Assembly: GCF_029626235.1 (NCBI RefSeq)
Contig: NZ_JARUBO010000005.1
Location: forward strand, 4,062,501 to 4,126,500
DNA from: Micromonospora sp. WMMD1120
Lineage (GTDB): Bacteria; Actinomycetota; Actinomycetes; Mycobacteriales; Micromonosporaceae
DNA length: 64,000 bases
Direction of reading: 5' to 3'
Position numbers and translations under genes: made by a program. Shown here in pieces: positions 7,877 to 27,542 of this stretch. Position 1 is the stretch's first letter. Each line of letters begins with the position of its first letter. Below the pieces are notes generated by a model. That model was given only the letters and a program-made list of their open reading frames with translations. It was not told the origin of the DNA and did not search any database.

Positions 7877-7911
7877 CCCGATCCGGCCCGACCCGGGCGT
7901 GGACCAGTGAC

Positions 7912-7943
7912 CGACGACCCGGCCCCGGTGGGCCGGGTCGTCG
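7912..7943 (+). terminator. Hairpin terminator after the DrrAB-like operon
   Basis: A 14-bp perfect GC-rich stem (7912-7925 with 7930-7943) has a 4-base loop and lies 35 bases after the permease stop. There is no U-tract, as is usual in actinomycetes. Confidence 0.6.
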
Positions 7944-8451
7944 CCGTGATCTCCGGCTCTGGTGCTGTCGGTTGTCCGGCGCGGTGCCGCCCCGTCATCG
8001 TCGCGGCCGAGTCGATCAGAAGGCCGGCACCGGAAACGTCGATTGTTATCGATAACACCTAGCGGAGGGCTGGCCCGGTCCGACGGGCGGTGTCGTCGAT
8101 GCCGCCCGGTCGTGGGCAGGTGGTCCCGAAAGGCCGTTCCGCGGGATCGATCACGAGGGCGGTGACGGATGATGATGTTATCGCTGACATCGCGGCGGGA
8201 CCCCGACGGTCGCCGCCGCGCCGGACCCTCGCCTGTCGGCGGTGCCTGTCGGGGTCGTCGGCCCCCCGGCGCCCCCGGCGTTCGTCCCCGTGGTTGACCA
8301 GTGACCGGTCGGCACCTTTCGCAGTGGTCTGTCATCAACTCGCCCGAACTCGTCCTCCTTCTGCGTTCCGTTACGGAGCTGTTGCGGGGGGATGTCTTGA
8401 CGACTCTGGATGTGAGCGTTAACACTATCCCCGTTAACGGTGGAGGTGAAC
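7944..8451 (+). promoter_or_regulatory. Regulatory region upstream of araB
   Basis: This stretch of about 500 bases has no convincing gene. It holds three LacI-type operator matches: TGTTATCGATAACA (8044-8057, a perfect palindrome), TGTTATCGCTGACA (8176-8189) and TGTGAGCGTTAACA (8411-8424). The last overlaps a promoter TTGACG (8397-8402), 17 bases, TAACAC (8420-8425). A further palindrome CCGTTAACGG is at 8431-8440. The layout fits repression of araB with looping from upstream sites. Confidence 0.6.
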
Positions 8452-10134
8452 ATGAACCGTGTGGACGGAGCTGACGACCGCTACGTCGTCGGTGTCGACT
8501 TCGGCACCCTGTCCGGGCGAGCTCTGGTGGTCCGTGTCGGTGATGGTGCCGAGTTGGGGACCGCGGTGCACGAGTACGGCGACGGCGTGATCAGCACGGC
8601 CCTTCCGGGAGGGCGACCCCTTCCCCCGGACTGGGCCCTGCAGAACCCGGACGACTACCGCGACGTGCTGCGGTACGCCGTTCCGGCGGCCGTGTCCGCG
8701 GCCGGAGTGGATCCGGCGGCGGTGGTCGGCATCGGCATCGACTTCACCGCCTGCACCGTGCTGCCGACGCTCGCCGACGGCACCCCGCTCTGCGAGACGC
8801 CGGCACTGCGCGACCGTCCGCACGCCTGGGTCAAGCTGTGGAAGCACCACGCCGCGCAGCCGCACGCGGACCGGATCAACGCGCTGGCCCACGAGCGGGG
8901 CGAGCCCTGGATCGGCCGGTACGGCGGCAAGATCTCCGCCGAGTGGCAGTTCGCCAAGGGCCTGCAGATCCTGGAGGAGGACCCAGAGGTCTACGACCTG
9001 GCCGAGCGCTTCGTCGAGGCGGCCGACTGGATCGTCTGGCAGCTCTGCGGCGTCGAGACCCGCAACGTCTGCACCGCCGGTTACAAGGGCATCCTGCAGG
9101 ACGGTCAGTACCCGTCACCGGAGTTCCTGACCGCGCTCAACCCCGCCTTCGGCGACTTCGTGGCCAAGCTGGACGGTCCGCTGCTGCCCCTGGGTGAGCG
9201 GGCCGGCGCGCTCACCGCCGAGGCCGCCGCGTGGACCGGCCTGCCGGAGGGGATCGCGGTGGCCGTCGGCAACGTCGACGCGCACGTCACCGCGGCGTCC
9301 GCCCAGGCCGTGGAGCCCGGTCGGCTCGTCGCCATCATGGGCACCTCCACCTGCCACGTGGTCAACGGCACGGAGGTCGCCGAGGTGGCCGGCATGTGCG
9401 GCGTGGTGGACGGTGGCATCAGCCCCGGCGCCTGGGGGTACGAGGCCGGGCAGAGCGGAGTCGGCGACATCTTCGGCTGGTTCGTCAAGCACGCCGCCCC
9501 GGCCGGTGTCGACTCGCACGAACGCCTCACCGAGCTGGCCGCGAGCCAGCCCGTCGGCGCGCACGGTCTGATCGCCCTGGACTGGTGGAACGGCAACCGA
9601 TCGCTGCTCGTCAACCACGACCTCAGCGGAATGATCGTCGGGATGACCCTGGCCACCCGGCCGCAGGACATCTACCGCGCGCTGCTGGAGTCCACCGCGT
9701 ACGGCACGCGAATGATCATCGAGGCGTTCGTCGACGCCGGGGTCGCGGTGAACGACCTGGTGATCGCCGGCGGCCTCACCAACAACGCGCTGCTGATGCA
9801 GATCTACGCCGACGTGACCAGGCGGCCCTTGAACATCATCGCCTCGGCGCAGGGGCCGGCGCTGGGCTCGGCGATCCACGCCGCCGTCGCCGCCGGCGCG
9901 TACCCGTCGATCCACGAGGCGTCGCGGGCGATGGGCCGGGTGCACGAGGCCGTCTACCGCCCGGACCCCGAGCGGGCCCGTGCCTACGACGCCCTGTATG
10001 CCGAGTACCGGGCGCTGCACGACCACTTCGGACGCGGCGGCAACGACGTCATGCTCCGGCTGCGGGCGATCCGCAACGCGGCGGTCGGCACCGCCGAAAC
10101 CACACCCGAGACCGCGTTGGAGGTGGTCGCGTGA
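8452..10134 (+). CDS. araB: L-ribulokinase
   Basis: This 560-residue FGGY-family carbohydrate kinase phosphorylates L-ribulose to L-ribulose 5-phosphate. It opens with the ribulokinase phosphate-binding segment VDFGTLSGRALVV and has the second-domain motifs GTSTCHVV and VIAGGLTNNALLMQIYADV; the length matches AraB. ATG 8452 is preceded by GGTGGAGGTGAAC. It overlaps araD by four bases (GTGA), so the two enzymes are translationally coupled. Expression is probably controlled by the LacI-type operator across its promoter at 8411-8424. Confidence 0.95.
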   Translation: MNRVDGADDRYVVGVDFGTLSGRALVVRVGDGAELGTAVHEYGDGVISTALPGGRPLPPDWALQNPDDYRDVLRYAVPAAVSAAGVDPAAVVGIGIDFTACTVLPTLADGTPLCETPALRDRPHAWVKLWKHHAAQPHADRINALAHERGEPWIGRYGGKISAEWQFAKGLQILEEDPEVYDLAERFVEAADWIVWQLCGVETRNVCTAGYKGILQDGQYPSPEFLTALNPAFGDFVAKLDGPLLPLGERAGALTAEAAAWTGLPEGIAVAVGNVDAHVTAASAQAVEPGRLVAIMGTSTCHVVNGTEVAEVAGMCGVVDGGISPGAWGYEAGQSGVGDIFGWFVKHAAPAGVDSHERLTELAASQPVGAHGLIALDWWNGNRSLLVNHDLSGMIVGMTLATRPQDIYRALLESTAYGTRMIIEAFVDAGVAVNDLVIAGGLTNNALLMQIYADVTRRPLNIIASAQGPALGSAIHAAVAAGAYPSIHEASRAMGRVHEAVYRPDPERARAYDALYAEYRALHDHFGRGGNDVMLRLRAIRNAAVGTAETTPETALEVVA

Positions 10135-10823
10135 GCGCCGAGGTGACCCGACAGATCCGCGAGCTGCGGGAGACCGTCGCCCGTCTGCACGCCGAGCTGA
10201 CCCGCAACAACCTGGTCGCCTGGACGTCCGGCAACGTTTCCGCGCGGGTTCCGGGCGCGGACCTGCTGGTGATCAAGCCGAGCGGGGTGAGCTATGACGA
10301 CCTCACCCCCGAGACGATGGTGGTGTGCGACCTGGAGGGCGCCCTGGTCGAGGGCGACTTCGCCCCGTCCAGCGACACCGCCGCCCACGCCTACGTCTAC
10401 CGGGCTATGCCCGAGGTGGGCGGCGTCGTGCACACGCACAGCGGGTACGCGACCGCCTGGGCCGCGTGCGGGGAGTCGATCCCCTGCCACCTGACCGCGC
10501 AGGCCGACGAGTTCGGCGGGGAGATCCCGATCGGTCCGTTCGCGCTGATCGGCGGTGACGACATCGGCAAGGGCATCGTCGCGACGCTGGCCGGGCACCG
10601 CTCGCCGGCGGTGTTGATGCGCAACCACGGCGTGTTCACCATCGGCCGCGACGCCCGCGCCGCGGTGAAGGCGGCGGTCATGTGCGAGGACGTGGCACGT
10701 ACCTCGTACCTGGCCCGCACCCTCGGGCGGCCGGTGCCGATGGCCCAGGCCGACATCGACGCCCTCTACGACCGCTACCAGAACGTCTACGGTCAACAAC
10801 CAGTCGCACCGGCGGGTTCCTGA
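10131..10823 (+). CDS. araD: L-ribulose-5-phosphate 4-epimerase
   Basis: This 230-residue class II aldolase/epimerase converts L-ribulose 5-phosphate to D-xylulose 5-phosphate, feeding the pentose phosphate pathway. It has the zinc-binding HTH motif (His101 and His103 in VVHTHSGYATAWA), a third candidate ligand in MRNHGVF (His166) and the ribulose-phosphate binding segment TSGNVSARV. The C-terminus ends NVYGQQ-like, as in AraD proteins. It starts at a GTG overlapping the araB stop. Confidence 0.93.
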   Translation: MSAEVTRQIRELRETVARLHAELTRNNLVAWTSGNVSARVPGADLLVIKPSGVSYDDLTPETMVVCDLEGALVEGDFAPSSDTAAHAYVYRAMPEVGGVVHTHSGYATAWAACGESIPCHLTAQADEFGGEIPIGPFALIGGDDIGKGIVATLAGHRSPAVLMRNHGVFTIGRDARAAVKAAVMCEDVARTSYLARTLGRPVPMAQADIDALYDRYQNVYGQQPVAPAGS

Positions 10824-10952
10824 CCCCTTCCCCGGTCATCGGGGACCCGCCGGTCTGCACCACGACGCACCAGCACGCACCACCCGCGTACGCCGCTCTG
10901 TCCCACCCGGCGGTTGGCGCGGTTACCCACCACATCCAGCCAAGGAGATTCG

Positions 10953-11957
10953 ATGGGAAAGATGCGAACGCAGTCCGTCCGGTGGCGCGCTGTCGCGGTC
11001 CTCGCCAGCGCGTTGCTGGTGGGAGGCGTGGCGGCCTGCGGCAACAGTGACACCGGCGGCGGCGGGTCCAAGGACGACGGCAAGATCACGATGGGCTTCT
11101 CGCAGGTCGGTGCGGAGAGCGGGTGGCGGACGGCGAACACCACCTCGATCAAGGAGGCGGCCGCCGCGGCGGACATCGAGCTCAAGTTCGACGACGCCCA
11201 GCAGAAGCAGGAAAACCAGATCAAGGCGATCCGCAACTACATCCAGCAGAAGGTCGACGTGATCGCCTTCTCGCCGGTGGTGGAGTCCGGCTGGGACACC
11301 GTGCTCAAGGAAGCCAAGGACGCCAAGATCCCGGTCATCCTGACCGACCGCGCGGTGGACTCGGCCGACAAGTCGCTGTACAAGACGTTCCTCGGCTCGG
11401 ACTTCGTCAAGGAGGGCCGACTCGCGGGTGAGTGGCTGGTCGAGCAGAAGAAGACCGCCTCCGGACCGGTGAACATCGTCGAGTTGCAGGGCACCACCGG
11501 TGCGGCGCCGGCCAACGACCGGAAGAAGGGCTTCGCCGAGGCCATCGCGGCCAACCCGAACCTGAAGGTCATCGCCTCGCAGTCCGGCGACTTCACCCGG
11601 GCCGGCGGCAAGCAGGTCATGGAGCAGTTCCTCAAGGCCAACCCGAAGATCGACGTGCTGTTCGCGCACAACGACGACATGGGTCTGGGCGCGCTCGAGG
11701 CGATCACCGCGGCCGGCAAGGTGCCCGGCAAGGACATCATCATCATCACCGTCGACGCGGTGAAGGACGGCATGCAGGCGCTCGCCGACGGGAAGTTCAA
11801 CTTCATCGCGGAGTGCAGCCCGCTGCTCGGCCCGCAGCTGATGGACCTGGCCAAGAAGATCCACGCGGGCGAGGAGGTGCCTGCTCGGATCGAGACCGAG
11901 GAGACCACCTTCACCCAGGAGCAGGCCAAGGAGGCCCTGCCCAACCGTAAGTACTGA
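10953..11957 (+). CDS. ytfQ: Sugar ABC transporter substrate-binding lipoprotein, YtfQ-like
   Basis: This 334-residue extracytoplasmic binding protein has a lipobox (LVGGVAAC, lipidated Cys about residue 29). The mature part is very close to the galactofuranose-binding protein YtfQ of Escherichia coli, sharing QQKQENQIKA, NIVELQGTTGA, DRKKGFAEAI, QSGDFTR and AHNDDMGLGA. The partner ATPase and two permeases follow. Because the genes sit between araBD and araA, the likely cargo here is L-arabinose (perhaps the furanose form). CAAGGAGATTCG precedes ATG 10953, so the longer in-frame GTG start is rejected. Confidence 0.92.
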   Translation: MGKMRTQSVRWRAVAVLASALLVGGVAACGNSDTGGGGSKDDGKITMGFSQVGAESGWRTANTTSIKEAAAAADIELKFDDAQQKQENQIKAIRNYIQQKVDVIAFSPVVESGWDTVLKEAKDAKIPVILTDRAVDSADKSLYKTFLGSDFVKEGRLAGEWLVEQKKTASGPVNIVELQGTTGAAPANDRKKGFAEAIAANPNLKVIASQSGDFTRAGGKQVMEQFLKANPKIDVLFAHNDDMGLGALEAITAAGKVPGKDIIIITVDAVKDGMQALADGKFNFIAECSPLLGPQLMDLAKKIHAGEEVPARIETEETTFTQEQAKEALPNRKY

Positions 11958-11962
11958 TCCAC

Positions 11963-11996
11963 GGCGGGGTCGCCGCGCTTGCGCGGCGACCCCGCC
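11963..11996 (+). terminator. Intercistronic hairpin after the binding-protein gene
   Basis: A perfect 16-bp GC-rich stem (11963-11978 with 11981-11996) starts 6 bases after the binding-protein stop. It sits inside the operon, so it more likely stabilises the upstream mRNA and lowers read-through than ends transcription. Confidence 0.6.
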
Positions 11997-12143
11997 GCGT
12001 CGTTTCCTTACCCACAACGGACCGGGCCTGGCCCGCGACCATCCCGTACGACGCCCACCGAGCGACCCGCAGGGACGAGCGGTGGGGATCGCTGGGGGCG
12101 TCGCGGCCCTTCCGTGTCGACGACCCAGAAGAGGTCTGATGGG

Positions 12144-13681
<1,538 letters not shown>

Positions 13682-13685
<4 letters not shown>

Positions 13686-14752
13686 ACGACACCACGAGCC
13701 GCTATCGGGCGATGACGGGTCACCGGCTGTTCTGGCCCGCCGTCGTGCTGTTCGTCATGCTCGCCGCGAACACTGTCTACCGGCCCGGGTTCCTGTCCAT
13801 CGAGCTGAAGGACGGGCACCTGTACGGCACACCGATCGACATCCTGCGGCTGAGCGCGCCGTTGATCCTCGTCGCGCTGGGCATGACGCTGGTCATCTCC
13901 ACCGGCGGCATCGACCTGTCGGTCGGCTCGCTCTGCGCGATCAGCGGCGCCATCGCCTGCATGTACATCAGCAAGCAGCCCGACCAGAACAGCCTCGGCG
14001 TGGTGGCGACCGCCCTCGCGATGGCGCTGGGCGTCTCGCTCGTGCTCGGGGCCTGGAACGGCGTGCTGGTGGCCGTGATCGGCATCCAGCCGATCATCGC
14101 CACCCTGATCCTGATGGTGGCCGGCCGGGGCCTCGCCCAGCTGATCACCGAGGGGCAGATCATCACCATCAACTCCGAGCCGTACCGGGCGATCGGCCTG
14201 GGGCACCTGCTGACGCTGCCGTTGGCCATCTTCATCGCCCTCGCCGCGGCGCTGCTCGTCGCCGCGTTCACCAGGCGGACCGCGCTCGGCATGATCGTCG
14301 AGTCGGTGGGCGGCAACTCCGAGGCCAGCCGGTTGGCGGGCATCCGCTCCGGCCGGGTGGTGTTCCTGGTGTACGTGGTCGGCGCCGCGTGCGCCGCGGT
14401 GGCCGGCTTCATGATGACCGCCAACGTGTCGAGCGCCGACGGCAACGCCGCCGGCCTCTGGGTGGAGCTGGACGCGATCCTCGCCGTCGTCATCGGCGGC
14501 ACGTCCCTCGCGGGCGGTCGGTTCTTCCTCAGTGGCACGATCCTCGGCGCGCTGATCATCCAGACCCTGACCACCACCGTGTACGCCATGAACATCTCGC
14601 CGCAGACGTCGCTGCTGTTCAAGGCTGTCGTCGTCATCGCCGTCTGCCTCGTCCAGGCGCCGGCCTTCCGGGCCCGGTTCCGCCGCCGCAGGCGCGGCAC
14701 CCCGCCGCCCGTCGCCATCGCCGACAAGCCGAAGGAGCAGGTGCCGGCATGA
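13682..14752 (+). CDS. ytfT: Sugar ABC transporter permease, YtfT-like
   Basis: This 356-residue permease of the RbsC/AraH/YtfT class has about ten hydrophobic segments, the hallmark [12 protein letters not shown] motif near residue 75 and the [18 protein letters not shown] motif in the C-terminal part. It overlaps both neighbours by ATGA junctions, so all three membrane-complex genes are translationally coupled. The C-terminal tail is basic and Pro-rich. Confidence 0.93.
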
Positions 14753-15738
14753 CCACTGGATCGCTCACCGTCCCTCGGACCCGGCTCCGGCTGCCGAGAC
14801 GGCAGATACCGGTGCTGGCGACGCTCGCCCTGCTGCTGGTCATGTACGGCATCGGCGTGTCCCAGTACACGGCGTTCTCCAACGTGCAGGTCATCTTCAA
14901 CGTGTTCATCGACAACGGCTTCCTGCTCGTCGTCGCGGTGGGCATGACCTTCGTGATCCTCACCGGCGGCATCGACCTGTCGGTCGGGTCCGTCGTCGCG
15001 ATGACGGCGATGGTGTCCGCCGCGCTGCTCGAGAACGGCATGCCGGCGGCGCTGGTGCTCGTCATCGCCCTGCTCATCGGCCCCACACTCGGCCTGCTGA
15101 TGGGTTGTGTCATCCACTTCTTCGAGATCCAGCCGTTCATCGTGACGCTCGCCGGGATGTTCTTCGCCCGGGGCATGTGCACGTTCATCTCCGGCGCGTC
15201 GATCCCGATCACCGACGGGTTCTGGACCTCGATGTCGCAGGAGCGGATCGGCAACCCCTCCGGCAACTTCGTGTCGATCAGCGTGCTGATCGCCTTCGCC
15301 GTGGTCCTCGTCGCCGCGTACACGCTGGCCTACACCCGGCTGGGGCGCAACGTGTACGCCATCGGCGGCAACCCGCAGTCGGCGCTGCTGATGGGCCTGC
15401 CGGTGGGGCGCACCCGGATCGCCGTCTACACGATCAGCGGCCTGTGCTCGGCGATCGGCGGCATCCTGCTGTCGTTCTACACCCTCTCCGGCGCTCCGCT
15501 GATCGCCGTGGGGATGGAGCTGGACGTCATCGCCGCCGTCGTCATCGGGGGCACCGTGCTCACCGGTGGCGCCGGCTACGTCTTCGGTACGGTGCTCGGC
15601 GTCCTGGTCCTGGGCGTGATCCAGACCCTGATCACCTTCGACGGCAGCCTCAACTCCTGGTGGACCAAGATCGTGATCGGCGGCCTGCTCTTCGCGTTCA
15701 TCCTCCTTCAGCGTCTCATCGGAATTCGTTACAAGTGA
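14749..15738 (+). CDS. yjfF: Sugar ABC transporter permease, YjfF-like
   Basis: This 329-residue second permease has the [15 protein letters not shown] and [18 protein letters not shown] motifs and about nine membrane segments. The pairing of two different permeases after a YtfQ-like binding protein and YtfR-like ATPase reproduces the gene order of the E. coli galactofuranose importer ytfQRT-yjfF. It is followed after 26 bases by araA. Confidence 0.93.
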
Positions 15739-15764
15739 CCGCCCCTCTCGCGGAAGGCAACCCC

Positions 15765-17267
15765 ATGGCACCACACACCGCACCCGAGATCTGGTTCCTC
15801 ACCGGCAGCCAAGGCATGTACGGCGAGGAGACGCTCCGCCAGGTGGCCGAGCAGTCCCGTCAGATCGCGGCCGCGCTCGACGACTCACCGCAGATTCCCG
15901 CCCGCGTGGTCTGGAAGCCCGTCCTGACCAACAGCGGCGAGATCCTGCAGGTCTGCCGGGACGCCGCCGCCCAGGGCGCGATCGGGGTCATCGCCTGGAT
16001 GCACACGTTCTCACCGGCGAAGATGTGGATCTCCGGCCTGGACGCGCTGCAGACGCCGCTGCTGCACCTGCACACTCAGTCCAACGTTCTGCTGCCGTGG
16101 AACGACATCGACATGGACTTCATGAACCTGAACCAGGCCGCCCACGGCGACCGCGAGTTCGGGTACATCCAGACCCGCCTCGGCGTTGCCCGCAAGACGG
16201 TGGCCGGCCACGTCAGCGACCCGCGGGTCGCCGCTCGGGTCGGCGCCTGGGCGCGCGCCGCGCTGGGTTGGTCGGCGATGCGGTCGCTGCGGCTGGCCCG
16301 CTTCGGTGACAACATGCGCGACGTCGCGGTGACCGAGGGCGACAAGGTCGAGGCGGAGCTGCGCTTCGGGGTGTCGGTGAACACCTACGGCGTCAACGAC
16401 CTGGTCGAGGTGGTCGGCGAGGTCACCGACGCGCAGGTGGACGACCTGGTCAAGGAGTACGAGGACACCTACCGCGTCGTCGGCGAGCTGGCCTCCGGGG
16501 GCGAGCGGCACGACTCGCTGCGCTACGCCGCGCGCCTGGAGCTGGGCCTGCGGGCGTTCCTGGACGCCGGCGGGTTCCGGGCGTTCACCACGAACTTCGA
16601 GGACCTCGGCGGGCTGCGCCAGCTGCCGGGCATCGCCGTGCAGCGGCTGATGGCCGACGGCTACGGCTTCGGTGGCGAGGGCGACTGGAAGACCTCCGTC
16701 CTGGTGCACACCATCAAGTCGATGGCGGTGGGCGTGGACGGCGGCACGTCGTTCATGGAGGACTACACCTACGACCTCACCCCGGGCGAGGAGTTGGTGC
16801 TCGGCGCCCACATGCTCGAGGTCTGCCCGACCATCGCGTCCGACGTACCCAACGTGGAGATCCACCCGCTCAGCATCGGCGGCCGGGAGGACCCGGTCCG
16901 GCTGGTGTTCGACGCCGCGCCCGGCCCGGCGGTCGTGCTGGGGCTGGCCGACATGGGGGAGCGCTTCCGCCTCGTCGCCAACGAGATCGACGTGGTCGCC
17001 CCGCCGCAGCCGCTGCGCCGGCTGCCGGTGGCCCGGGCGGTCTGGCGTCCGCGCCCCGACCTGCCGGTGTCGGCCGAGGCGTGGATCACCGCCGGCGCAC
17101 CGCACCACACGGTGCTCTCGCAGGCGGTGGGCGTGGAGGAGCTGCACGACCTGGCCGAGATGAGCCGTACCGAGCTGGTGGTCATCGACGCCAAGACGGA
17201 GCCTCGCCGCTTCGCCGACGAGTTGCGCTGGAACCAGGCCTACCACCGGCTGGCCCGCGGCTTCTGA
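15765..17267 (+). CDS. araA: L-arabinose isomerase
   Basis: This 500-residue enzyme has the same length as E. coli AraA and converts L-arabinose to L-ribulose. Metal/active-site residues expected in the family are present: Glu305 (GGEGDWK), Glu332 (FMEDYTYD), His349 ([10 protein letters not shown]) and His448 (PHHTVLSQ). The N-terminus [17 protein letters not shown] is diagnostic. It follows the importer permease by 26 bases with CGGAAGG as ribosome site, and completes the araB-D-transport-A operon. Confidence 0.97.
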
Positions 17268-17752
17268 CGATCCTCCGACAGTGATCGACTCGGGCCCGTC
17301 GGCCCGGGTCGCTCACGCCCTGGGCCGTGATCCACTCGGCTTCCTTGACGTCGGGCCTTCCGTGCCCGCCGCATACCGCGCTGTCAAGGAAGCCGAGTGG
17401 ATCACGAGTTTCCGACCCCCGTCGTGTCCTGCCTCGTCACCTGGTTGTCCCTGCCGGGTCATCCCCGTCGTGTCCTGCCTCGCGCCTACCGGCGCCGCGG
17501 TCGCCCGCGCGGCCGCCGACCGATGTTTCGGCTTGACTACGGTCTTGTTATCGATAACAGTAAGCATCAATAGGGTTCGATTCCTGCGCCGCGCCGGCTC
17601 TGATCCGCGTGCCTCCCCGTCGAGGTCGAACGATCTCCGGGTCCGGGCGCAGGTTGCTGTTAGCGATCACATCATCGGTCCGGCGGTGTGCCGACCAGCG
17701 ATGCGGCGGCCGGCTGAGCACGTCCGGCGCCTCAGGCCAGCGAAGGAGGATC
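17268..17752 (+). promoter_or_regulatory. Intergenic region: inverted repeat and GH43 promoter/operators
   Basis: No gene is convincing in these 485 bases. The first part has a long inverted repeat (17326-17406). The second has a promoter TTGACT (17533-17538), 16 bases, TAACAG (17555-17560), overlapped by the perfect palindrome TGTTATCGATAACA (17546-17559). A second operator match, TGTTAGCGATCACA, is at 17658-17671. The GH43 gene is therefore expected to belong to the same LacI regulon as araB. Confidence 0.6.
17326..17406. repeat. 24-bp perfect inverted repeat, possibly a terminator or REP-like element
   Basis: The arms at 17326-17349 and 17383-17406 are perfect reverse complements (starting CGTGATCCACTCGGC) with a 33-base loop. 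It lies 59 bases after araA. The arms are less GC-rich than the other terminators here, so a mobile or REP-type hairpin is possible. Confidence 0.7.
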
Positions 17753-19861
17753 ATGTTTTCCACTGGACGGGTTCCGCGCGGAGCGCCACGCCGGCGCGGG
17801 AGATTGTCAGTACTCGGCGCGGCGGTGGTGGCGGTGGTGATCGGCGCGGCCCTCGCCGCTGTCGCCCCGTCGCCGGCCTCGGCGGCGACCGTGGACACCA
17901 ACGCGTGGTACGTGTTGGTCAACCGCAACAGCGGCAAGGCTCTGGACGTGTACAACCTGGCTACCAACGATGGTGCCCGGATCACGCAGTGGACCCGGAA
18001 CAACGGCAACCAGCAGCAGTGGCAGTTCGTCGACTCCGGTGGTGGGTACTACCGGTTGAAGTCGCGGCTGTCGGGCAAGGTGCTCGACGTCTACCAGCGT
18101 GCGACCGCCAACGGCGCGGCGATCGTGCAGTGGTCGGACAACAACGGCACCAACCAGCAGTTCCGGTTGGCGGACTCGGACGGTGGTTACGTTCGGCTGA
18201 TCAACCGGAACAGCAACCGGGTGATGGAGGTGCAGGGCGCCTCGACCGCCGACGGTGGCAACATCGTGCAGTACGACGACTGGAACGGCGCCAACCAGCA
18301 GTGGCAGCTCGTCCGCGTCGACGGGAGCACGCCGCCCACCACGCCACCCCCGTCGAACGGCACCTTCACGAACCCGGCGATCTGGCAGGACTTCGCCGAC
18401 GTCGACATCATCCGGGTCGACAACGTCTACTACCTGACGTCGTCCACCATGCACTACTCGCCCGGCGCGCCGGTGCTGCGCTCCTACGACCTGGTCAACT
18501 GGGAGTTCGCCGGGCACGCCGTACCGCGCCTGGACTTCGGCTCGAAGTACGACATGAGTGGTGGTAGCAACGCGTACGTCGACGGGATCTGGGCGTCGAC
18601 GCTGAACTACCGGCCGAGCAACAGGCAGTACTACTGGGCCGGGTGCATCGACTTCGCGCAGACGCACATCTACACCGCGTCCGCCGTCGACGGCGCCTGG
18701 AGCAAGCACACCACCATCCCCAACTGCTACTACGACGCCGGCCTGCTGTTCGACGACAACGACACCCCGTACATCGCGTACGGCAACGGCACCATCAGCG
18801 TCGCCCAGCTCTCCGCAGACGGGAAGTCCCAGGTCCGCGCCCAGCAGGTGTACCAGACGCCGTCGAGCATCGGCACGCTGGAAGGTGCCCGGTTCTACAA
18901 GCGCAACGGCGCCTACTACATCTGGCTCACCCGCCCGGCCAACGGCCAGTACGTGCTGAAGTCGACGAACGGCCCGTTCGGTCCGTACGAGCAGCGGCAG
19001 GTCCTGCTCGACCTGCCCGGCCCGATCTCCGGCGGTGGTGTGCCACACCAGGGCGGCCTGGTGCAGACCCAGAACGGCGACTGGTACTACATGTCCTTCG
19101 TCGACGCGTACCCCGGCGGCCGGATGCCGGCCCTGGCGCCGATCACCTGGACCGGCGACGGTTGGCCGGTGCTGCAGACGGTCAACGGCAGGTGGGGCGA
19201 CAGCTACCCGAAGCCGAACCTGCCCGCGCCGCCCCGGGCGGTCAAGCCGCTCATCGGCACGGACACCTTCGCCGGCACCACGCTGGGCCCGCAGTGGGAG
19301 TGGAACCACAACCCGGACACCAGCAGGTTCTCGGTCAACAACGGCCTGAACCTGCAGACCGCCACCGTCACCGGCGACCTGTACAAGGCGCGCAACACCC
19401 TGACCCACCGCATTCAGGGCCCCACCTCGACGGCCACCATCGAGTTGGACTACTCCACCATGCGCGACGGCGACCGCACCGGCCTGGCGGTGCTGCGCAA
19501 CTCGTCGGCCTGGATCGGCGTCCGGCGCGACAACGGCACCACCCGGCTGGTCATGCAGAACGGCCTGACGATGGACGGTAGTTGGAACACCACCAGCACC
19601 GGCAGCGAGGTGGCGAGCACCGCCGTCTCCGGTGGCCGGATCTGGTTGCGCGCCAACGCCGACATCAGACCGGGGTCCGGACGGCAGGCCCGTTTCTCGT
19701 ACAGCACCGACGGTGTCAACTTCACCTCGTTCGGGAACGCCCTGACGCTGGCGAACAACTGGCAGTTCTTCATGGGCTACCGCTTCGCCATCTTCAACCA
19801 CGCCACCCAGGCGCTCGGTGGCGCGGTCACCGTGCGGAGATTCGATCTGACCACACCGTGA
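17753..19861 (+). CDS. Secreted GH43 glycosidase with N-terminal ricin-type (CBM13) domain
   Basis: This 702-residue protein has a signal peptide (hydrophobic GAAVVAVVIGAALAAVA, cleavage after PASA about residue 44) and a ricin-B/CBM13-like region (about 48-190) with three W-type repeats (NNGNQQQWQFVDS, NNGTNQQFRLADS, WNGANQQWQLVRV). A Pro/Thr linker follows, then a five-bladed GH43 catalytic domain (about 205-500, opening PAIWQDFADVDIIRVDNVYYL with the candidate catalytic Asp) and a C-terminal concanavalin-like beta-sandwich (about 520-702). This layout fits a beta-xylosidase/alpha-L-arabinofuranosidase releasing arabinose or xylose from hemicellulose outside the cell. GAAGGAGGATC precedes ATG 17753. 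Confidence 0.9.
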   Translation: MFSTGRVPRGAPRRRGRLSVLGAAVVAVVIGAALAAVAPSPASAATVDTNAWYVLVNRNSGKALDVYNLATNDGARITQWTRNNGNQQQWQFVDSGGGYYRLKSRLSGKVLDVYQRATANGAAIVQWSDNNGTNQQFRLADSDGGYVRLINRNSNRVMEVQGASTADGGNIVQYDDWNGANQQWQLVRVDGSTPPTTPPPSNGTFTNPAIWQDFADVDIIRVDNVYYLTSSTMHYSPGAPVLRSYDLVNWEFAGHAVPRLDFGSKYDMSGGSNAYVDGIWASTLNYRPSNRQYYWAGCIDFAQTHIYTASAVDGAWSKHTTIPNCYYDAGLLFDDNDTPYIAYGNGTISVAQLSADGKSQVRAQQVYQTPSSIGTLEGARFYKRNGAYYIWLTRPANGQYVLKSTNGPFGPYEQRQVLLDLPGPISGGGVPHQGGLVQTQNGDWYYMSFVDAYPGGRMPALAPITWTGDGWPVLQTVNGRWGDSYPKPNLPAPPRAVKPLIGTDTFAGTTLGPQWEWNHNPDTSRFSVNNGLNLQTATVTGDLYKARNTLTHRIQGPTSTATIELDYSTMRDGDRTGLAVLRNSSAWIGVRRDNGTTRLVMQNGLTMDGSWNTTSTGSEVASTAVSGGRIWLRANADIRPGSGRQARFSYSTDGVNFTSFGNALTLANNWQFFMGYRFAIFNHATQALGGAVTVRRFDLTTP

Positions 19862-19887
19862 CGCCTGTCACAACGCTGTCGTAGTGA

Positions 19888-19939
19888 CCGGTGGCGCGGG
19901 CGCCGTACACCTGACGTGGTGGTGTGCCCGCGCCACCGG
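19888..19939 (+). terminator. Hairpin terminator 1 after GH43
   Basis: A 14-bp perfect stem (19888-19901 with 19926-19939) lies 26 bases after the stop; the loop itself has a smaller ACACC/GGTGT pairing. Confidence 0.6.
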
Positions 19940-19950
19940 CAGCCGTCCTC

Positions 19951-19995
19951 GCCGGCCTGCCCGACGCTCTGTCCAGGAGCGTGGGGCAGGCCGGC
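19951..19995 (+). terminator. Hairpin terminator 2 after GH43
   Basis: A 19-bp stem with one mismatch (19951-19969 with 19977-19995) and a 7-base loop follows the first hairpin, giving a double terminator in the 382-base gap before the LacI gene. The rest of the gap (19996-20243) shows no operator matching the regulon motif. Confidence 0.6.
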
Positions 19996-20243
19996 GTTGG
20001 CGCGGCCGTAAGTCGGACGACCGGCGCTCCCGGCGGGAACTGTGTCGCAGGACTCCGGCACGTCGCACAGTCCGGGCAACGCGGTGCCATGTCCGGGGCG
20101 CTTGCTGGCGTAGACTGTCGGCGATCCAGCGCTGGTCACCTGGGATTCAGCACCGGCGTGGTGACTGAGCGAGGGGACCGGGCCGGGCCGCTCCAGTCAA
20201 CGTCGACCGGGCCGCGGGCCGGACACGTAGCGGGGGGAGCGAA

Positions 20244-21251
20244 ATGGCCGTCCACGGTCCCGCGATGACGGACGTCGCCCGTCTCGCCGGTGTCTCCCAT
20301 CAAACCGTGTCGCGGGTGCTCAACGGGCACCCCAACGTCCGTGAGCAGACCCGGCTGCGGGTGCGGGCGGCGATCGCCGAACTCGGCTACCGCCCCAACG
20401 GCGCGGCACGCGCGTTGGTGACCGGTCGATCGCAGGTCATCGGTGTGGTCGCGCAGAACACGACGCTCTACGGCCCGGCCTCGCTGCTCGCCGCGCTGGA
20501 GCAGACCGCCGCCGAGGAGGGCTTCGCGGTCAGCGTCGGCAGTGTGCGCAACCTCGACCACCGTTCCATCTCGGCAGCCGTCGAGCGGCACCTGTCGCAC
20601 CGGGTCGCCGGCATCGTGGTCATCGCGCCGGTCGAGTCGGCGGGTGAGGCGTTGGCCCGCCTGCCGCAGGACGTCCCGCTGGTCACTGTCGACGGTGACC
20701 CGAGCGGGCCGGTGCCGTTGGTGACCGTCGACCAGGTGGCGGGCGCGCGAGCGGCCACCCAACATCTGCTCGACGCGGGCCACCGCACCGTGTGGCACGT
20801 CTCCGGGCCGTCCGACTGGTTCGACAGCGTGGGGCGGATCGACGGCTGGCGGCAGGCGCTGCTGGCCGCCGGACTGGAACCGCCACCGCCGATGCCGGGG
20901 GACTGGTCCGCCGCCTCGGGCTACCGGTCGGGGCAGATGTTGGCACGGATGCCGGAGGTCACCGCCGTCTTCACCGCCAACGACCACCTCGCGCTGGGCG
21001 TGCTGCGGGCGTTGCACGAGTTCGGCCGGCGGGTGCCGGGCGACATCAGCGTCGTCGGCTTCGACGACGTGCCGGAGGCGGCATACTTCATCCCTCCGCT
21101 GACCACTGTGCGGCCGGACTTCGACGCGGTGGCACGCGCGAGCCTGCAGATGCTGCTGACCCAGATCGAGTCGGGCACCGGTGGAGCGCTGCGGCAGACG
21201 ATCGCGCCGGCCCTGGTCGCCCGCGAGAGCGTCGGCCCGCCGCGGCACTGA
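20244..21251 (+). CDS. LacI-family transcriptional regulator (probable regulator of the arabinose region)
   Basis: This 335-residue repressor has an N-terminal LacI helix-turn-helix (MTDVARLAGVSHQTVSRVLNG, residues 8-28) and hinge (YRPNGAARALVTGRS). A periplasmic-binding-protein-like sugar-sensing domain follows, with TANDHLALGVLRAL and SVVGFDDVPEA. GGGGGGAGCGAA precedes ATG 20244. It sits between the GH43 and GH27 genes, both of which carry the same LacI-type operator, so it is the best candidate for the factor binding TGTTANCGNTAACA. No such site lies in front of its own gene, so autoregulation is not indicated. Confidence 0.92.
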   Translation: MAVHGPAMTDVARLAGVSHQTVSRVLNGHPNVREQTRLRVRAAIAELGYRPNGAARALVTGRSQVIGVVAQNTTLYGPASLLAALEQTAAEEGFAVSVGSVRNLDHRSISAAVERHLSHRVAGIVVIAPVESAGEALARLPQDVPLVTVDGDPSGPVPLVTVDQVAGARAATQHLLDAGHRTVWHVSGPSDWFDSVGRIDGWRQALLAAGLEPPPPMPGDWSAASGYRSGQMLARMPEVTAVFTANDHLALGVLRALHEFGRRVPGDISVVGFDDVPEAAYFIPPLTTVRPDFDAVARASLQMLLTQIESGTGGALRQTIAPALVARESVGPPRH

Positions 21252-21434
21252 CGACGGCGCGGCGCCGACGCTGGGCGACGCGGTGGTAGCTATCCGTAGG
21301 CGTCAATGTCACGAAGTCTTGTGCATAAGACGTGCGTCGATCGGACCTGGCACCTCACGCATCGATTATTGATGATGCCGATGCGGGAAGGTATTGAACC
21401 TCGTGAAATGTCGCCGTAACATGACTGGCGTCGC

Positions 21435-21448
21435 TGTTAACGCTAACA
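21435..21448. promoter_or_regulatory. LacI-type operator upstream of GH27
   Basis: TGTTAACGCTAACA is a near-perfect palindrome 75 bases before the GH27 start. It matches the operators at araB, GH43 and chvE. Confidence 0.65.
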
Positions 21449-21523
21449 AAGATTGGCGTCCGGCTATCAGTCCGCTGACCGGCGATCCTCAACACGGGCG
21501 GGCGCCACCGACGAGGAGGCTCG

Positions 21524-23170
21524 ATGAACCGCATCACCCGAGGTCGACGATGGGGCAGTGTGCTGGCGGCGGGACTGCTGCTGGCCGGCGCCCTGGTCGG
21601 CCTGCGTGCCCCCGCCGCCCAGGCGCTGGACAACGGCGTGGCGCGCACTCCCCCGATGGGGTGGAATTCGTGGAACACGTTCGGCTGCAACATCAACGAG
21701 TCGCTGATCCGGACGATGGCTGACGCGATCGTCAGCAGTGGGATGCGCGATGCGGGCTACCAGTACGTCGTCGTCGACGACTGCTGGTTCAACCCCAACC
21801 GGGACAGCTCGGGCAACCTCCAGGGCGACCCGACCCGGTTCCCCAGCGGAATGAAGGCGCTCGGCGACTACCTGCATGCCCGCAACCTCAAGTTCGGTCT
21901 CTACCAGGTGCCCGTCGACAAGACCTGCGCCCAGTACTTCGGCGCCTACCCGGGCGCGACCGGCAGCCGGGGCCACGAGGTCCAGGACGCCCGGCAGTTC
22001 GCCGCCTGGGGAGTGGACTTCCTGAAGTACGACTGGTGCTCGCCGGAGGGCAGCATCAACGACCAGGTGACCACCTTCGCCAAGATGCGCGACGCGCTGG
22101 CCGCCACCGGCCGACCGATCGTCTACAGCATCAACCCGAACAGCATCCACGCCAAGACCGGCCCGCAGCGCAACTGGGGCGACGTGGCCAACATGTGGCG
22201 GACCACCGAGGACATCACCAACGCCTGGGACACCGGCCAGACCAACGGCTACCCGATGGGTATCCAGAACATCATCAACGTGACGGTGCCGTTGGCCTCG
22301 TACGCGCGTCCGGGTGGGTTCAACGACCCGGACATGATGGAGGTCGGCAACGGCGGAATGAACGACACGGAGATGCGCAGCCACTTCGCGATGTGGTCGA
22401 TCATGGCGTCGCCGCTGATCGCCGGCAACGACATCCGCAACATGACCGCCGCGACGCGGACCATCCTCAACAACGCCAACCTGATCGCCATCAACCAGGA
22501 CTCCCTCGGGTTGCAGGGGACGCAGGTGTCGTTCGACGGCACGCGCCGGGTGCTGGCCAAGCGGCTCGCCAACGGTGACGTCGCCGTCGCGCTGTTCAAC
22601 CAGGGCTCCTCGACGACGACGATCTCCACCACGGCCGCCGCCATCGGCAAGTCCGGCTCGTCGTTCACCCTCGTGGAGGCGTGGACCGGCACCACCAGCT
22701 CCAGCACCGGGACCATCAGCGCCAGCGTCCCCGGGCACGGCACGGTGGTCTACCGGGTCAGTGGTGGTGGAACGACCACCCCGCCGCCGACCACGTCGAG
22801 CGCCCTCGTCAGCGCCTCCTCCGGCCGCTGCCTGGATGTGCCGCAGAGCAACACCGCCAACGGCACCCAGCCGGTGATCTGGGACTGCAACGGCGCCGCC
22901 AACCAGAACTGGACCGCCAACGGTCAGGCCCTGCAGTCGCTCGGCAAGTGCCTGGACGCGCCGACGAACGCCACGGCCGGGTCCAAGGTGCAGCTCTGGG
23001 ACTGCAACGGCGGGGCCAACCAGCGGTGGACCAGCAACACCAACGGCACGATCAGTAACGTGCAGACCGGGCTCTGCCTGGACGTGAACAACAACGCCAC
23101 GGCCAACGGCACCACGGTGATCCTCTGGACCTGCACGGGCGCGGCCAACCAGCGCTGGTCGCGGCGGTAG
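21524..23170 (+). CDS. Secreted GH27 glycosidase (alpha-galactosidase / beta-L-arabinopyranosidase family) with CBM13
   Basis: This 548-residue protein has a signal peptide (residues 1-35), a GH27 barrel opening TPPMGWNSWNTFGCNI (about 40-310), a C-terminal beta domain (320-415), a Thr/Pro linker and a ricin-type CBM13 (425-548). It keeps the substrate motif DDCW (85-88), the nucleophile Asp170 (KYDWC) and the acid/base Asp230 (WRTTED). The usual Y-x-D-x-G after the third strand is changed to YQVPVD. GH27 includes alpha-galactosidases and beta-L-arabinopyranosidases; DDCW argues for galactosidase, while regulon membership with araBDA argues for arabinopyranosidase. Specificity is left open. 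Confidence 0.9.
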   Translation: MNRITRGRRWGSVLAAGLLLAGALVGLRAPAAQALDNGVARTPPMGWNSWNTFGCNINESLIRTMADAIVSSGMRDAGYQYVVVDDCWFNPNRDSSGNLQGDPTRFPSGMKALGDYLHARNLKFGLYQVPVDKTCAQYFGAYPGATGSRGHEVQDARQFAAWGVDFLKYDWCSPEGSINDQVTTFAKMRDALAATGRPIVYSINPNSIHAKTGPQRNWGDVANMWRTTEDITNAWDTGQTNGYPMGIQNIINVTVPLASYARPGGFNDPDMMEVGNGGMNDTEMRSHFAMWSIMASPLIAGNDIRNMTAATRTILNNANLIAINQDSLGLQGTQVSFDGTRRVLAKRLANGDVAVALFNQGSSTTTISTTAAAIGKSGSSFTLVEAWTGTTSSSTGTISASVPGHGTVVYRVSGGGTTTPPPTTSSALVSASSGRCLDVPQSNTANGTQPVIWDCNGAANQNWTANGQALQSLGKCLDAPTNATAGSKVQLWDCNGGANQRWTSNTNGTISNVQTGLCLDVNNNATANGTTVILWTCTGAANQRWSRR

Positions 23171-23221
23171 CCGATCGGGCGTCGCGCCCGACCGGGTCGC
23201 GGCAGCCGATCTGAACGCTGG

Positions 23222-23254
23222 TGCCCGCGGACGACACGCCGTCGTCCGCGGGCA
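23222..23254 (+). terminator. Hairpin terminator after GH27
   Basis: A 14-bp perfect stem (23222-23235 with 23241-23254) with a 5-base loop lies 52 bases after the GH27 stop. Confidence 0.6.
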
Positions 23255-23443
23255 TCGGTCTGTCCGGCGCCGGGTCGTCGGGCGCCGGTCGGTCCGGCGA
23301 CCGATCCGCCGGGGTGGTCTGTCGGGCGTCGCCGCGATGATGCAGAGTCGTCATGTTCCGCCCTTCCGGCGGATCGACCACATGACTACGCTCGCCTGGA
23401 TGCTCCGTTACGAGACCGTGACACCGGTATTTCCGGCCAGGTG

Positions 23444-23472
23444 TTGACGCAATCTATGTGAGCGCTAACACT
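23444..23472 (+). promoter_or_regulatory. chvE promoter with overlapping LacI-type operator
   Basis: TTGACG (23444-23449), a 16-base spacer and TAACAC (23466-23471) form a promoter. TGTGAGCGCTAACA (23457-23470) covers the spacer and the -10, where a bound repressor would block polymerase. It is almost identical to the araB promoter arrangement. Confidence 0.65.
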
Positions 23473-23532
23473 ACCCGAAAGATGACAGTTGGCCCCGGCA
23501 GTCGGCGGGGGAGTCCAAGAGAGGAGAACCCC

Positions 23533-24675
23533 GTGGGCAGGAGATTCCTGGTTGCTCTCAGCACCGCGGCACTGGCGTTGAGCCTGACGGCGTGCAGTGG
23601 TGAGGGCGCGGGTGGCGGTGGTGACACCGGCAGTGACAAGCCCGGCGACCTGACCATCGGCGTGTCGATGCCGACCCAGACGTCCGAGCGGTGGATCGCC
23701 GACGGCAACGCGGTGAAGTCGAAGCTGGAGGCGAAGGGCTACAAGGTCGACCTCCAGTACGCCGGCGACGACATCCCCACCCAGTCGCAGCAGGTCGACC
23801 AGATGATCACCCGGGGCGCGGACGTCCTGGTCATCGCGGCGATCGACGGCACCGCGCTCAGCAGCCAGTTGCAGGCTGCCGCTGACGCGAAGATCCCGGT
23901 CATCTCCTACGACCGGCTCATCCGCGGCAGCAAGAACGTCGACTTCTACGTCAGCTTCGACAACTACAAGGTCGGCGTCGCCCAGGCCACCGGCCTGCTC
24001 GTCGGCCTCGGCCTGCAGAACAAGGACGGTTCGAAGGGCACGGCGAAGGGCCCGTTCAACATCGAGCTGTTCGCGGGTTCGCTGGACGACAACAACACCC
24101 AGTTCTTCTTCGGCGGCGCGATGGACACGCTGAAGCCGTTCATCGAGAACGGCACGCTGCGGGTGAAGTCCAAGCAGACCACCATCGAGCAGGTGGCCAC
24201 CCTGCGCTGGCAGCAGGAGACGGCGCAGAAGCGCATGGAGGACCTGCTGACCTCCAGCTACAACGACGGCTCGAAGGTCGACGGCGTGCTCTCCCCGTAC
24301 GACGGCATCTCCCGGGGCATCATCACCGCCCTGCAGAACGCCGGCTACGGCACCGCGGCCAAGAAGCTCCCGGCGGTGACCGGCCAGGACGCCGAGATCG
24401 CGTCGATCAAGCTGATCAACGACGGGGTGCAGACCTGCACCGTCTTCAAGGACACCCGTCTGCTGGCCGAGCAGGCCGTGAACGCCGCCGAGGCGTTCCT
24501 GCAGAAGAAGCAGCCGCAGGCCAACGACACGCAGACGTACAACAACGGCGTCAAGGTCGTTCCGTCCTACCTGCTGCCGATCGTCACGGTCTACAAGGAC
24601 GACATCAAGACCGCGCTGATCGACTCCGGCTACTGGACGGCGGAAGAGGTCGCCGCCGGTCAGGCCAAGAAGTAA
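23533..24675 (+). CDS. chvE: Multiple-monosaccharide ABC transporter substrate-binding lipoprotein, ChvE-like
   Basis: This 380-residue binding protein has a lipobox (LSLTACSG, Cys about residue 21) and a ribose-binding-protein fold. It resembles ChvE, which binds arabinose, xylose, galactose and related sugars: VSMPTQTSERWIADG, YAGDDIPTQSQQVDQMI, YDRLIRGSKNVDFYVSFDN and VTGQDAEIASIKLI. The start is GTG 23533 with AGGAG seven bases upstream; upstream in-frame codons overlap the operator and are rejected. It is followed by its ATPase and permease. Confidence 0.92.
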   Translation: MGRRFLVALSTAALALSLTACSGEGAGGGGDTGSDKPGDLTIGVSMPTQTSERWIADGNAVKSKLEAKGYKVDLQYAGDDIPTQSQQVDQMITRGADVLVIAAIDGTALSSQLQAAADAKIPVISYDRLIRGSKNVDFYVSFDNYKVGVAQATGLLVGLGLQNKDGSKGTAKGPFNIELFAGSLDDNNTQFFFGGAMDTLKPFIENGTLRVKSKQTTIEQVATLRWQQETAQKRMEDLLTSSYNDGSKVDGVLSPYDGISRGIITALQNAGYGTAAKKLPAVTGQDAEIASIKLINDGVQTCTVFKDTRLLAEQAVNAAEAFLQKKQPQANDTQTYNNGVKVVPSYLLPIVTVYKDDIKTALIDSGYWTAEEVAAGQAKK

Positions 24676-24756: not shown

Positions 24757-26291
<1,535 letters not shown>

Positions 26292-26295
<4 letters not shown>

Positions 26296-27542
26296 CCAGC
26301 ATCAAGACCCCTTCGACGGAGCGTCCGACGCCACCGGAGAGCACACCCGCCGCCGCCCTGCACAGCGGGACGAGCGACCTGCGGGCGCTGGTGTTGAACA
26401 ACCTGCGACAGAGCGGCATCTACGTCGCCCTGGTCGTCATCGTCGCGCTCTTCGCGGTGCTGACCGACGGGGTGCTGCTGAGCCCCGGCAACATCACCAA
26501 CATCGTGCTCCAGTACTCGTACATCCTGGTGCTGGCGATCGGCATGGTCATCCTGATCATCGGTGGGCACATCGACCTGTCGGTCGGGTCGGTGGTCGCG
26601 TTGACCGGAGCGGTCTCCGCGGTCCTGGTGATCCAGCAGGGTCACCCGTGGTGGATCGGCGTGCTGGCTGCGCTGGCCGTGGGCATCGCGGTCGGAGCGT
26701 GGCACGGCTTCTGGGTGGCGTACGCGGGCATCCCGGCCTTCATCGTGACCCTGGCCGGCATGCTGCTGTTCCGGGGTCTCACCCTCCGGGTGCTCGACAA
26801 CATCTCGCTGTCGCCGTTCCCCGCCGAGTACCAGAAGGTCGCCGCGGGCTTCCTCAACGGCCTGCTCGGTGGCAACGGGTTCGACGCCTTCACGTTGCTG
26901 ATCGGCGCGATCGCCGTCGCCGGGTACGCGGTGAGTGGGTTCCGCACCCGGGTGGCGCGGATCCGCTACCAGCAGCCTGTGGAGTCGTTCCCGCTGTTCG
27001 TCGCCCGGGTCGTGGTGGTCGGTTCGGTCATCATGTACTTCGCCTGGCAGTTGGCGCACGCCCGCGGTCTGCCGATCGTGTTGATCATCCTGGCGTTCCT
27101 GGTGCTGGTCTACGGCCTGCTCACCCGGCGTACCGTCTTCGGTCGTCAGGTCTACGCGATCGGCGGCAACCTGTCGGCGGCGGCGCTGTCCGGGGTGAAG
27201 GTGCGCACCGTCAACTTCTGGATGTTCGTCAACATGGGCTTCCTGGCGGCGGTGGCTGGCGTCATCTACTCGTCGCGGTCCAACGGCGCACAGCCCGCGG
27301 CCGGCAACATGTTCGAGTTGGACGCGATCGCCGCGGCCTTCATCGGCGGCGCGGCGGTCACCGGCGGTGTCGGCACCGTGGTGGGCGCGATGGTCGGTGG
27401 TCTGATCATGGCGGTGATGAGCAACGGCATGCAGCTGATGGGCATCGACCAGTCGACGCAGTCGGTGGTGAAGGGCCTGGTGCTGCTCGTCGCTGTCGCC
27501 TTCGACGTCTACAACAAGCGCCGGGCCGGCACGGCCCGCTGA
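26292..27542 (+). CDS. mmsB: Multiple-monosaccharide ABC transporter permease
   Basis: This 416-residue permease has an N-terminal cytoplasmic stretch of about 40 residues and ten or more hydrophobic segments. The family motifs [16 protein letters not shown] and [24 protein letters not shown] are present. An insertion with two extra membrane segments between about residues 205 and 260 is normal for the MmsB/GguB group and explains the length. It ends the chvE operon; a 17-bp hairpin follows. Confidence 0.92.

Follow-up and report, generated by a model that had tools for sequence, protein, structure and literature searches.

A candidate AraQ-like LacI-family repressor and a putative L-arabinose/arabinoxylan regulon in Micromonospora sp. 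WMMD1120

Introduction

Does a single LacI-family repressor coordinate the cleavage, uptake and catabolism of arabinose-containing polysaccharides in Micromonospora? The question is raised by a 64-kb stretch of the 7.15-Mb genome of Micromonospora sp. WMMD1120 (G000:C5:4062501-4126500; hereafter the window), in which araB, araD, the genes of a GafA/YtfQ-type ATP-binding cassette (ABC) importer, araA, a GH43 glycosidase gene, lacI, a GH27 glycosidase gene and chvE-gguA-gguB follow one another in this order. An earlier reading made from the letters alone (the sequence-only reading) had noted seven copies of a 14-bp palindrome at this locus and predicted coordinated control by one regulator, the LacI-type protein encoded in its middle. 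All seven sites are present exactly as noted (Table 1), and they lie upstream of araB, GH43, GH27 and chvE. The prediction is supported: conserved sites and their co-occurrence with a LacI clade speak for coordinated control. Its scope was drawn too small, and a paralog carries the same recognition helix. We consider it probable, from sequence comparison, that the window LacI is an arabinose-responsive repressor of araBDA-gaf, GH43, GH27, chvE-gguAB and about 14 remote places.

Results

Operator sites across the genome

The whole genome was searched with a tight pattern, TGTKADCGHTMACA, which occurs at 20 exact places: six of the seven window sites and 14 remote ones. One mismatch adds 13 further places, site 8176 belonging to this class, and brings the total to 33. 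Read backwards, the pattern has no place in the genome at up to one mismatch. A matched palindrome of the same composition, in which K and M were exchanged, has no exact place in the genome and eight with one mismatch, one of them being site 8176; read backwards, it has two. With a loose pattern at three mismatches the excess is modest, the window holding 25 matches against a shuffle mean of 15.06 and 3 of 100 shuffles reaching 25.

All 14 remote exact sites adjoin carbohydrate-active enzyme, esterase or sugar-uptake genes, as named from Pfam and PDB matches, and many of these targets act on arabinose-bearing polymers. Three of the five GH10 genes in the genome have a site, and the remote target enzymes are presumably secreted. 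The full-genome motif scan that the sequence-only reading had proposed thus extends it, since every exact site beyond the window stands beside a coherent target. The regulon looks larger than had been noted: a genome-wide L-arabinose/arabinoxylan regulon, with at least 21 sites in about 18 promoter regions.

Conservation at orthologous loci

Conservation was assessed at 80 loci (L050-L129) that encode an ortholog of the window LacI, the closest among named organisms being that of Micromonospora tarensis (99%). An exact tight-pattern site was sought within 500 bp upstream of each gene. Each gene was represented by its top tblastn match with an identity of 40% or more, without an orthology test. 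Loci in which this match stopped short of the first 60 residues, or in which less than 500 bp of upstream DNA was present, were dropped; for araB this leaves 28 of the 80. On this count a site precedes araB in 25/28 loci, GH43 in 38/43, GH27 in 20/27 and chvE in 26/34. The operon-internal genes have almost none: 0/27 for araD, 0/51 for the importer ATPase, 0/49 and 0/54 for the permeases, 0/34 each for gguA and gguB, 2/50 for the sugar-binding protein and 2/65 for araA. These counts, like the TTGAC offsets given below, are uncorrected for kinship; the loci are related and do not represent independent events. The sequence-only reading had staked its prediction on conservation in related genomes, and the sites are indeed kept at the same four genes. 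In all eight chvE loci without a site, chvE lies shortly behind araA, as in one operon.

The lacI gene itself had been remarked to lack a site. This holds in the window and for 65 of the 80 orthologs. The other 15 comprise two Micromonospora loci (L067 and L094) and 13 from outside the genus (Lentzea, Umezawaea, Crossiella, Saccharothrix, Actinoplanes and one metagenome-assembled genome), and in these 13 lacI directly precedes araB or araA. Sites stand before both lacI and the neighbouring araB or araA in Lentzea, Umezawaea, Crossiella, Saccharothrix and some Actinoplanes, and lacI adjoins araB or araA in 18 of the 20 loci L110-L129. Judged by site position, a lacI-ara unit with putative autoregulation is widespread; in Micromonospora, most lacI genes are without an exact site. 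When any base is allowed at position 6, six more loci (L075, L077, L078, L079, L082 and L099) have a site between divergent GH27 and lacI genes.

The regulator

The window LacI combines a helix-turn-helix (PF00356, 73.8 bits) with a periplasmic-binding-like sensor (PF13377, 120.7 bits), both above cut-off, and matches the lac repressor with an E value of about 5e-56. Its putative operators are CG-centred palindromes near the target genes, as expected of the LacI/GalR family. In alignment, Escherichia coli LacI has YQTVSR where the recognition helix of the window protein has HQTVSR. E. coli LacI reads TGTGAGC. Because the YQ helix reads this sequence, it is plausible by analogy that an HQ helix would read TGTKAN(C). 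The recognition helix is kept in 79 of the 80 orthologs, and among the 24 LacI-family genes of the genome the SHQTVS helix is found only in the window LacI and one paralog.

We compared site numbers with the presence of this LacI in 200 genomes of the family. A best E value of about 1e-135 or lower was taken as an ortholog and nothing at 1e-80 as no homolog; in each genome the ten best first-look candidates were scored, and the rank tests ignore kinship. The 92 ortholog-bearing genomes have a median of 10 sites and none has zero; of the 42 genomes with no homolog at 1e-80, 29 have zero sites. Within the genus (41 genomes), 34 with an ortholog have 2-23 sites, three with distant homologs have 3, 6 and 7, and four without a homolog have none. 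These data suggest that the HQ LacI clade most likely binds the motif, and that in some species the window LacI alone would be enough for the whole regulon. Among possible targets in LacI-less genomes, GH62 was sought in seven genomes and found in none, but it was not found in the control genomes either, so that this result says little. GH10 is present in G143 and G149, which have no site genome-wide, and not in G134 and G174. Two genomes have two copies of the window LacI, M. matsumotoense (L107/L115, 78-79%) and M. antibiotica (L108/L114, 82%), in each case on the same contig at a distance of over 150 kb.

Several observations weigh against assigning the regulon to the window LacI. The 66 genomes with only distant homologs (best E value 1e-80 to about 1e-113) have a median of nine sites, three of them having zero, so that the ortholog is dispensable in some genomes. 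Among the 42 genomes that show no homolog at 1e-80, 13 keep one to four sites. araB, too, is absent from the four Micromonospora genomes that have no homolog, and their loss of sites may reflect lost targets. Seven of the 80 ortholog loci have no site in the locus DNA; the whole genomes of six of these have 17 (L101), 5 (L100), 9 (L103), 6 (L072), 3 (L087) and 14 (L114). In the first of them the Plantactinospora alkalitolerans ortholog (L101:7695-8693, 83%) has QM for HQ in its helix; its 12.8-kb locus is without a site, yet the genome has 17, which makes it no clean test. Two of the 14 remote targets, feruloyl esterase L131 and GH43 L134, were not among the genes found next to sites in genome G155, and a paralog of 52% identity has the same recognition helix. 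A sigma-70 consensus scan of window positions 7900-24000 returned no promoter; the TAACA "minus-10" boxes described below depart from that consensus.

Sharing with this paralog (6213595-6214581) is the alternative that survives best, and we regard it as a possibility of some weight, though an unlikely one: the sites would be common to both proteins or divided between them by half-site position 6. It draws on the identical helix and on three genomes without the ortholog (G131, G172 and G188), which have the same kind of site at araB and chvE and two HQ homologs of 52-54% flanking araB. G155, by contrast, has the ortholog, no second hit at 1e-80 and 20 sites, and 12 of its 14 remote ones adjoin the same targets as here (86-96% identity); a further 14 genomes of the genus, each with the ortholog as its single hit, have 2-17 sites. 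Nor does the paralog's own neighbourhood favour sharing, as the 19.5 kb around it hold no exact site, only a one-mismatch site before the LacI gene that heads the run. This run (L142:5028-15698), at whose end the 52% paralog lies, encodes on one strand, besides the paralog, a second LacI protein, an esterase, three open reading frames that may form an ABC importer, and an IlvD/EDD dehydratase, possibly a second sugar-acid route. In G131 (loci L165, L187 and L191), and likewise in G172 and G188, the ara operon lies between two different HQ-helix LacI genes.

Promoter geometry

The promoter-like boxes that had been noted at araB, GH43 and chvE were borne out when read by eye (Table 1). At the 80 loci, counting two strands per site, TTGAC starts 13 bases ahead of the operator on 83 and 14 bases ahead on 14 of 412 site-strands, a gap of eight or nine bases on 97, and occurs at every other offset from 8 to 55 combined on 8. 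In the regions of our own remote sites (L130-L141) and those of G155, TTGAC stands at the 13- or 14-base offset in 10/68 and elsewhere in four, two of these at 15. Such fixed spacing fits repression via occlusion of the spacer and -10 region. Neighbouring exact sites form 38 pairs 99-116 bp apart in L050-L129, mostly before GH43. DNA looping with a fixed phase as a requirement was ruled out, since this range gives no single helical phase.

The araB start is preceded at about 260-410 bp by sites 8044 and 8176; in G155 another site stands 391 bp beyond the proximal one of araB, and the genome of G180 holds a pair of sites 438 bp apart. From such far operators the window LacI might activate some promoters, in the manner of AraQ of Bifidobacterium, which has been proposed to repress or activate according to site position (PMC5928203). 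We think this improbable, since both the constant distance to TTGAC and the proximal sites of araB, GH43 and chvE point to occlusion. Still less credible to us is a reading in which the window LacI is a bystander and most sites belong to a global catabolite repressor or to a different LacI-type protein, such as one whose helix is VPTVS or RATVS. The genome does encode two dozen LacI-family proteins, and one-mismatch sites lie about 0.4-0.5 kb off at L034 and L023; however, site number tracks the window LacI clade over the 200 genomes, LacI, araB and the sites are kept together in several genera, none of the remaining LacI genes here has an exact site closer than 10 kb, and CebR of Streptomyces reads a different motif, TGGGAGCGCTCCCA (PMC4898821). 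That the palindromes are chance or structural repeats with no regulatory role, as the weak window excess at three mismatches would allow, is hardly credible in view of the exact-match excess, the matched control, the conservation and the coherence of the targets.

The sites, their conservation and gene context, the promoter geometry and the co-occurrence with the LacI clade are read from the DNA; from them we infer binding, a dimeric repressor and an inducer. In the proposed mechanism, a LacI dimer would occupy TGTKANCGNTMACA operators at araBDA-gaf, GH43, GH27 and chvE-gguAB. It would also occupy about 14 remote operators, nearly all ahead of enzymes predicted to cut arabinoxylan or other polysaccharides that carry arabinose. 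Where the operator starts eight or nine bases past TTGAC, as it does at several promoters, it would cover the spacer and -10 region, so that bound repressor would exclude RNA polymerase. L-Arabinose or an early product (L-ribulose or its phosphate) would release the repressor, and debranching enzymes, importers and catabolism would then come on together.

Genes of the locus and the sugar cue

L-Arabinose is the likeliest cue, ahead of galactose and xylose; araBDA defines the catabolism of L-arabinose. The binding protein of the ara operon is closest to GafA of Mycobacterium smegmatis (6hbd/6hbm), a component of the GafABCD type of importer, which binds L-arabinofuranose and D-galactofuranose (PMC10191376). 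In Shewanella GafA, Phe40 is reported to exclude galactofuranose (PMC10191376); the alignment reads Asn at this position in the window protein, as in M. smegmatis, and the window protein may therefore take both furanoses. Genes for furanose and for pyranose systems occur together in Clostridium beijerinckii and Acidovorax citrulli (PMC10191376), a pattern that the furanose importer and the second, ChvE-type importer of the window would fit by analogy. For AraQ of Bifidobacterium breve, no compound tried in vitro is reported to have acted consistently (PMC6882875).

The GH43 and GH27 proteins of the window have typical signal peptides at the N terminus (read by eye). The solved structure closest to GH43 is that of HiAXHd3, an arabinoxylan arabinofuranosidase. 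In GH27, Asp (VDDCWF) occupies the position of SaArap27A Glu99, as in rice alpha-galactosidase, and not Glu, Ile or another bulky residue. Such residues go with beta-L-arabinopyranosidase, the position not being the sole determinant of specificity (PMC5853685). Going by this key residue, the window GH27 looks like an alpha-galactosidase type; assignment as a beta-L-arabinopyranosidase, which the best PDB match (the Streptomyces avermitilis enzyme) had suggested, was withdrawn because of the Asp. The gap between GH43 and lacI (19889-20005) holds two long near-perfect hairpins (fold z -6.0), possibly a transcription end, in which case lacI may own a separate promoter. Downstream of gguB, a 501-amino-acid open reading frame (27970-29475) has no Pfam match, and its coding frame is doubtful.

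Table 1. Features of the window (window coordinates) and genes beside the 14 remote exact sites
Feature	Position	Strand	Remarks
araB, L-ribulokinase, heads ara operon	8452..10134	+	TIGR01234, 747.5 bits; start codon by eye
araD, L-ribulose-5-phosphate 4-epimerase	10131..10823	+	NF005123, 373.7 bits; start uncertain
GafA/YtfQ-type sugar-binding protein	10953..11957	+	6hbd/6hbm, E 3.5e-135, closest solved structure
Importer ATPase, YtfR/GafB type	12144..13685	+	NF041861, 697.9 bits (under curated cut-off 850); start uncertain
Importer permease, YtfT type	13682..14752	+	
Importer permease, YjfF type	14749..15738	+	NF008630, 389.1 bits, over cut-off
araA, L-arabinose isomerase	15765..17267	+	PF02610, PF24856, PF11762
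GH43 with ricin-type lectin domain	17753..19861	+	PF04616; closest solved structure 3zxj (HiAXHd3), E 3.4e-156
LacI-family repressor, proposed regulator	20244..21251	+	Recognition helix GVSHQTVS
GH27 with ricin-type lectin	21524..23170	+	Asp at specificity position
ChvE-type sugar-binding protein	23533..24675	+	3urm/3uug ChvE, E 5.3e-110, ranked second behind 4wwh "ABC transporter"
gguA-type importer ATPase	24757..26295	+	PF00005; named from position next to chvE
gguB-type permease	26292..27542	+	PF02653; named from position next to chvE
Operator TGTTATCGATAACA	8044..8057		Distal, ~0.4 kb upstream of araB
Operator TGTTATCGCTGACA	8176..8189		Upstream of araB; one mismatch to tight pattern
Operator TGTGAGCGTTAACA	8411..8424		Proximal araB site; overlaps promoter-like boxes
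Operator TGTTATCGATAACA	17546..17559		GH43 promoter-like region
Operator TGTTAGCGATCACA	17658..17671		Second GH43 site, 112 bp further downstream
Operator TGTTAACGCTAACA	21435..21448		Upstream of GH27
Operator TGTGAGCGCTAACA	23457..23470		Overlaps chvE promoter-like boxes
araB boxes, TTGACG-17-TAACAC	8397-8425		TTGACG 8397-8402, TAACAC 8420-8425
GH43 boxes, TTGACT-16-TAACAG	17533-17560		TTGACT 17533-17538
chvE boxes, TTGACG-16-TAACAC	23444-23471		TTGACG 23444-23449
Remote: GH62 with lectin			
Remote: CBM2 protein			L131; matches feruloyl esterase 8jh8, E 7.4e-75
Remote: GH3-CBM6 / GDSL esterase			Divergent pair
Remote: GH10 / CBM2 esterase			Divergent pair
Remote: GH43 / 513-aa (amino acid) protein of no known family			L134; divergent pair
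Remote: GH62-CBM2			
Remote: sugar importer			Permease and binding protein
Remote: GH127			
Remote: GH43-CBM6			
Remote: GH10-CBM2			
Remote: esterase with lectin			
Remote: GH43 with AbfB domain			
Remote: GH10-GH62 fusion			
Remote: GH27			L141; closest to beta-L-arabinopyranosidase GsAbp (4nx0), E 1e-111

Remote target genes

The remote GH27 has Trp at the specificity position (by eye) and may be a beta-L-arabinopyranosidase. At L134, the 513-amino-acid protein (4754-6295, minus strand) has no Pfam or PDB match and has its operator in common with the divergent GH43 gene, which makes it a candidate new enzyme. At L136 (13190-16796), an amidohydrolase-family gene stands behind a one-mismatch site and is followed by permease and binding-protein genes behind an exact site; this cluster may extend the regulon to another sugar.

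Discussion

The window LacI belongs to a known kind of regulator. AraQ of Bifidobacterium is likewise a LacI-family protein encoded beside araBDA (PMC4746261, PMC5928203, PMC6882875). Its consensus, TGTGAGCGCTCACA, is an instance of the window motif, and site 8411 agrees with it at 12 of 14 positions (PMC4746261). Orthologs of araQ are linked to araBDA and an ABC importer in other Actinobacteria, including Stackebrandtia (PMC5928203). We call the window LacI AraQ-like from its operator and araBDA linkage, the comparison being with AraQ as described. The core regulon of bifidobacterial AraQ holds central carbon metabolism genes, whereas the annotated genes beside our 14 remote exact sites include none of the gap, eno, pyk or tkt-tal type; control of such genes marks the bifidobacterial regulon and not the local one proposed for other Actinomycetales. 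In addition, distant AraQ sites were reported to be absent from other Actinomycetales (PMC4746261), as against the 14 distant exact sites found here.

CebR resembles the proposed regulator in being a LacI repressor with a 14-bp CG-centred palindrome before many carbohydrate-active enzyme genes; for six strains, predictions range from 6 to 30 genes per genome (PMC4898821). It differs in its motif, its cello-oligosaccharide cue and its cellulase targets, whereas the window regulon has an ara operon and many debranching enzymes; positions 3-4 of the window motif are T and G/T, not GG as in the CebR operator. A BxlR homolog of Streptomyces SirexAA-E has been proposed to read CGAANNTTTCG, and BxlR of Streptomyces thermoviolaceus reads CGAANxTTCG (PMC12772271). 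A review lists AraR and XylR among the LacI-family proteins that repress arabinanase and xylanase genes (PMC10766802), and passages of PMC4052901 examined for arabinose and AraR gave no result.

The likeness to E. coli LacI in the recognition helix has its limits. The ideal lac operator core is TGTGAGCGCTCACA; half-site position 4 of the window motif is G or T. From its length and alignment, the window LacI is not expected to have the C-terminal tetramerisation segment, and its neighbouring operators are not helically fixed.

Among the titles and abstract openings listed in searches of the open-licence PMC literature there was no Micromonospora or wider actinobacterial regulon like that of the window. 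As far as these lists show, a known kind of regulator has here an apparently unreported and much wider reach. We are evenly divided on a broader proposal, that the Micromonosporaceae ara repressor captured the arabinose-debranching secretome (GH62, GH43, GH127, GH27, feruloyl esterase and GH10) together with furanose-type and ChvE-type importers, that L-arabinose would serve as the sole cue for attacking arabinoxylan and related polymers, and that a fixed TTGAC-8/9-operator promoter module would have spread and so enlarged the regulon. If this is true, new hemicellulases would be encoded by the unannotated genes that such operators control; used as a finder, the motif already points to the 513-amino-acid protein. 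Loss of one repressor could raise a whole debranching secretome. The regulon would provide a map, open to experiment, of what prompts a large group of soil actinomycetes to degrade arabinoxylan.

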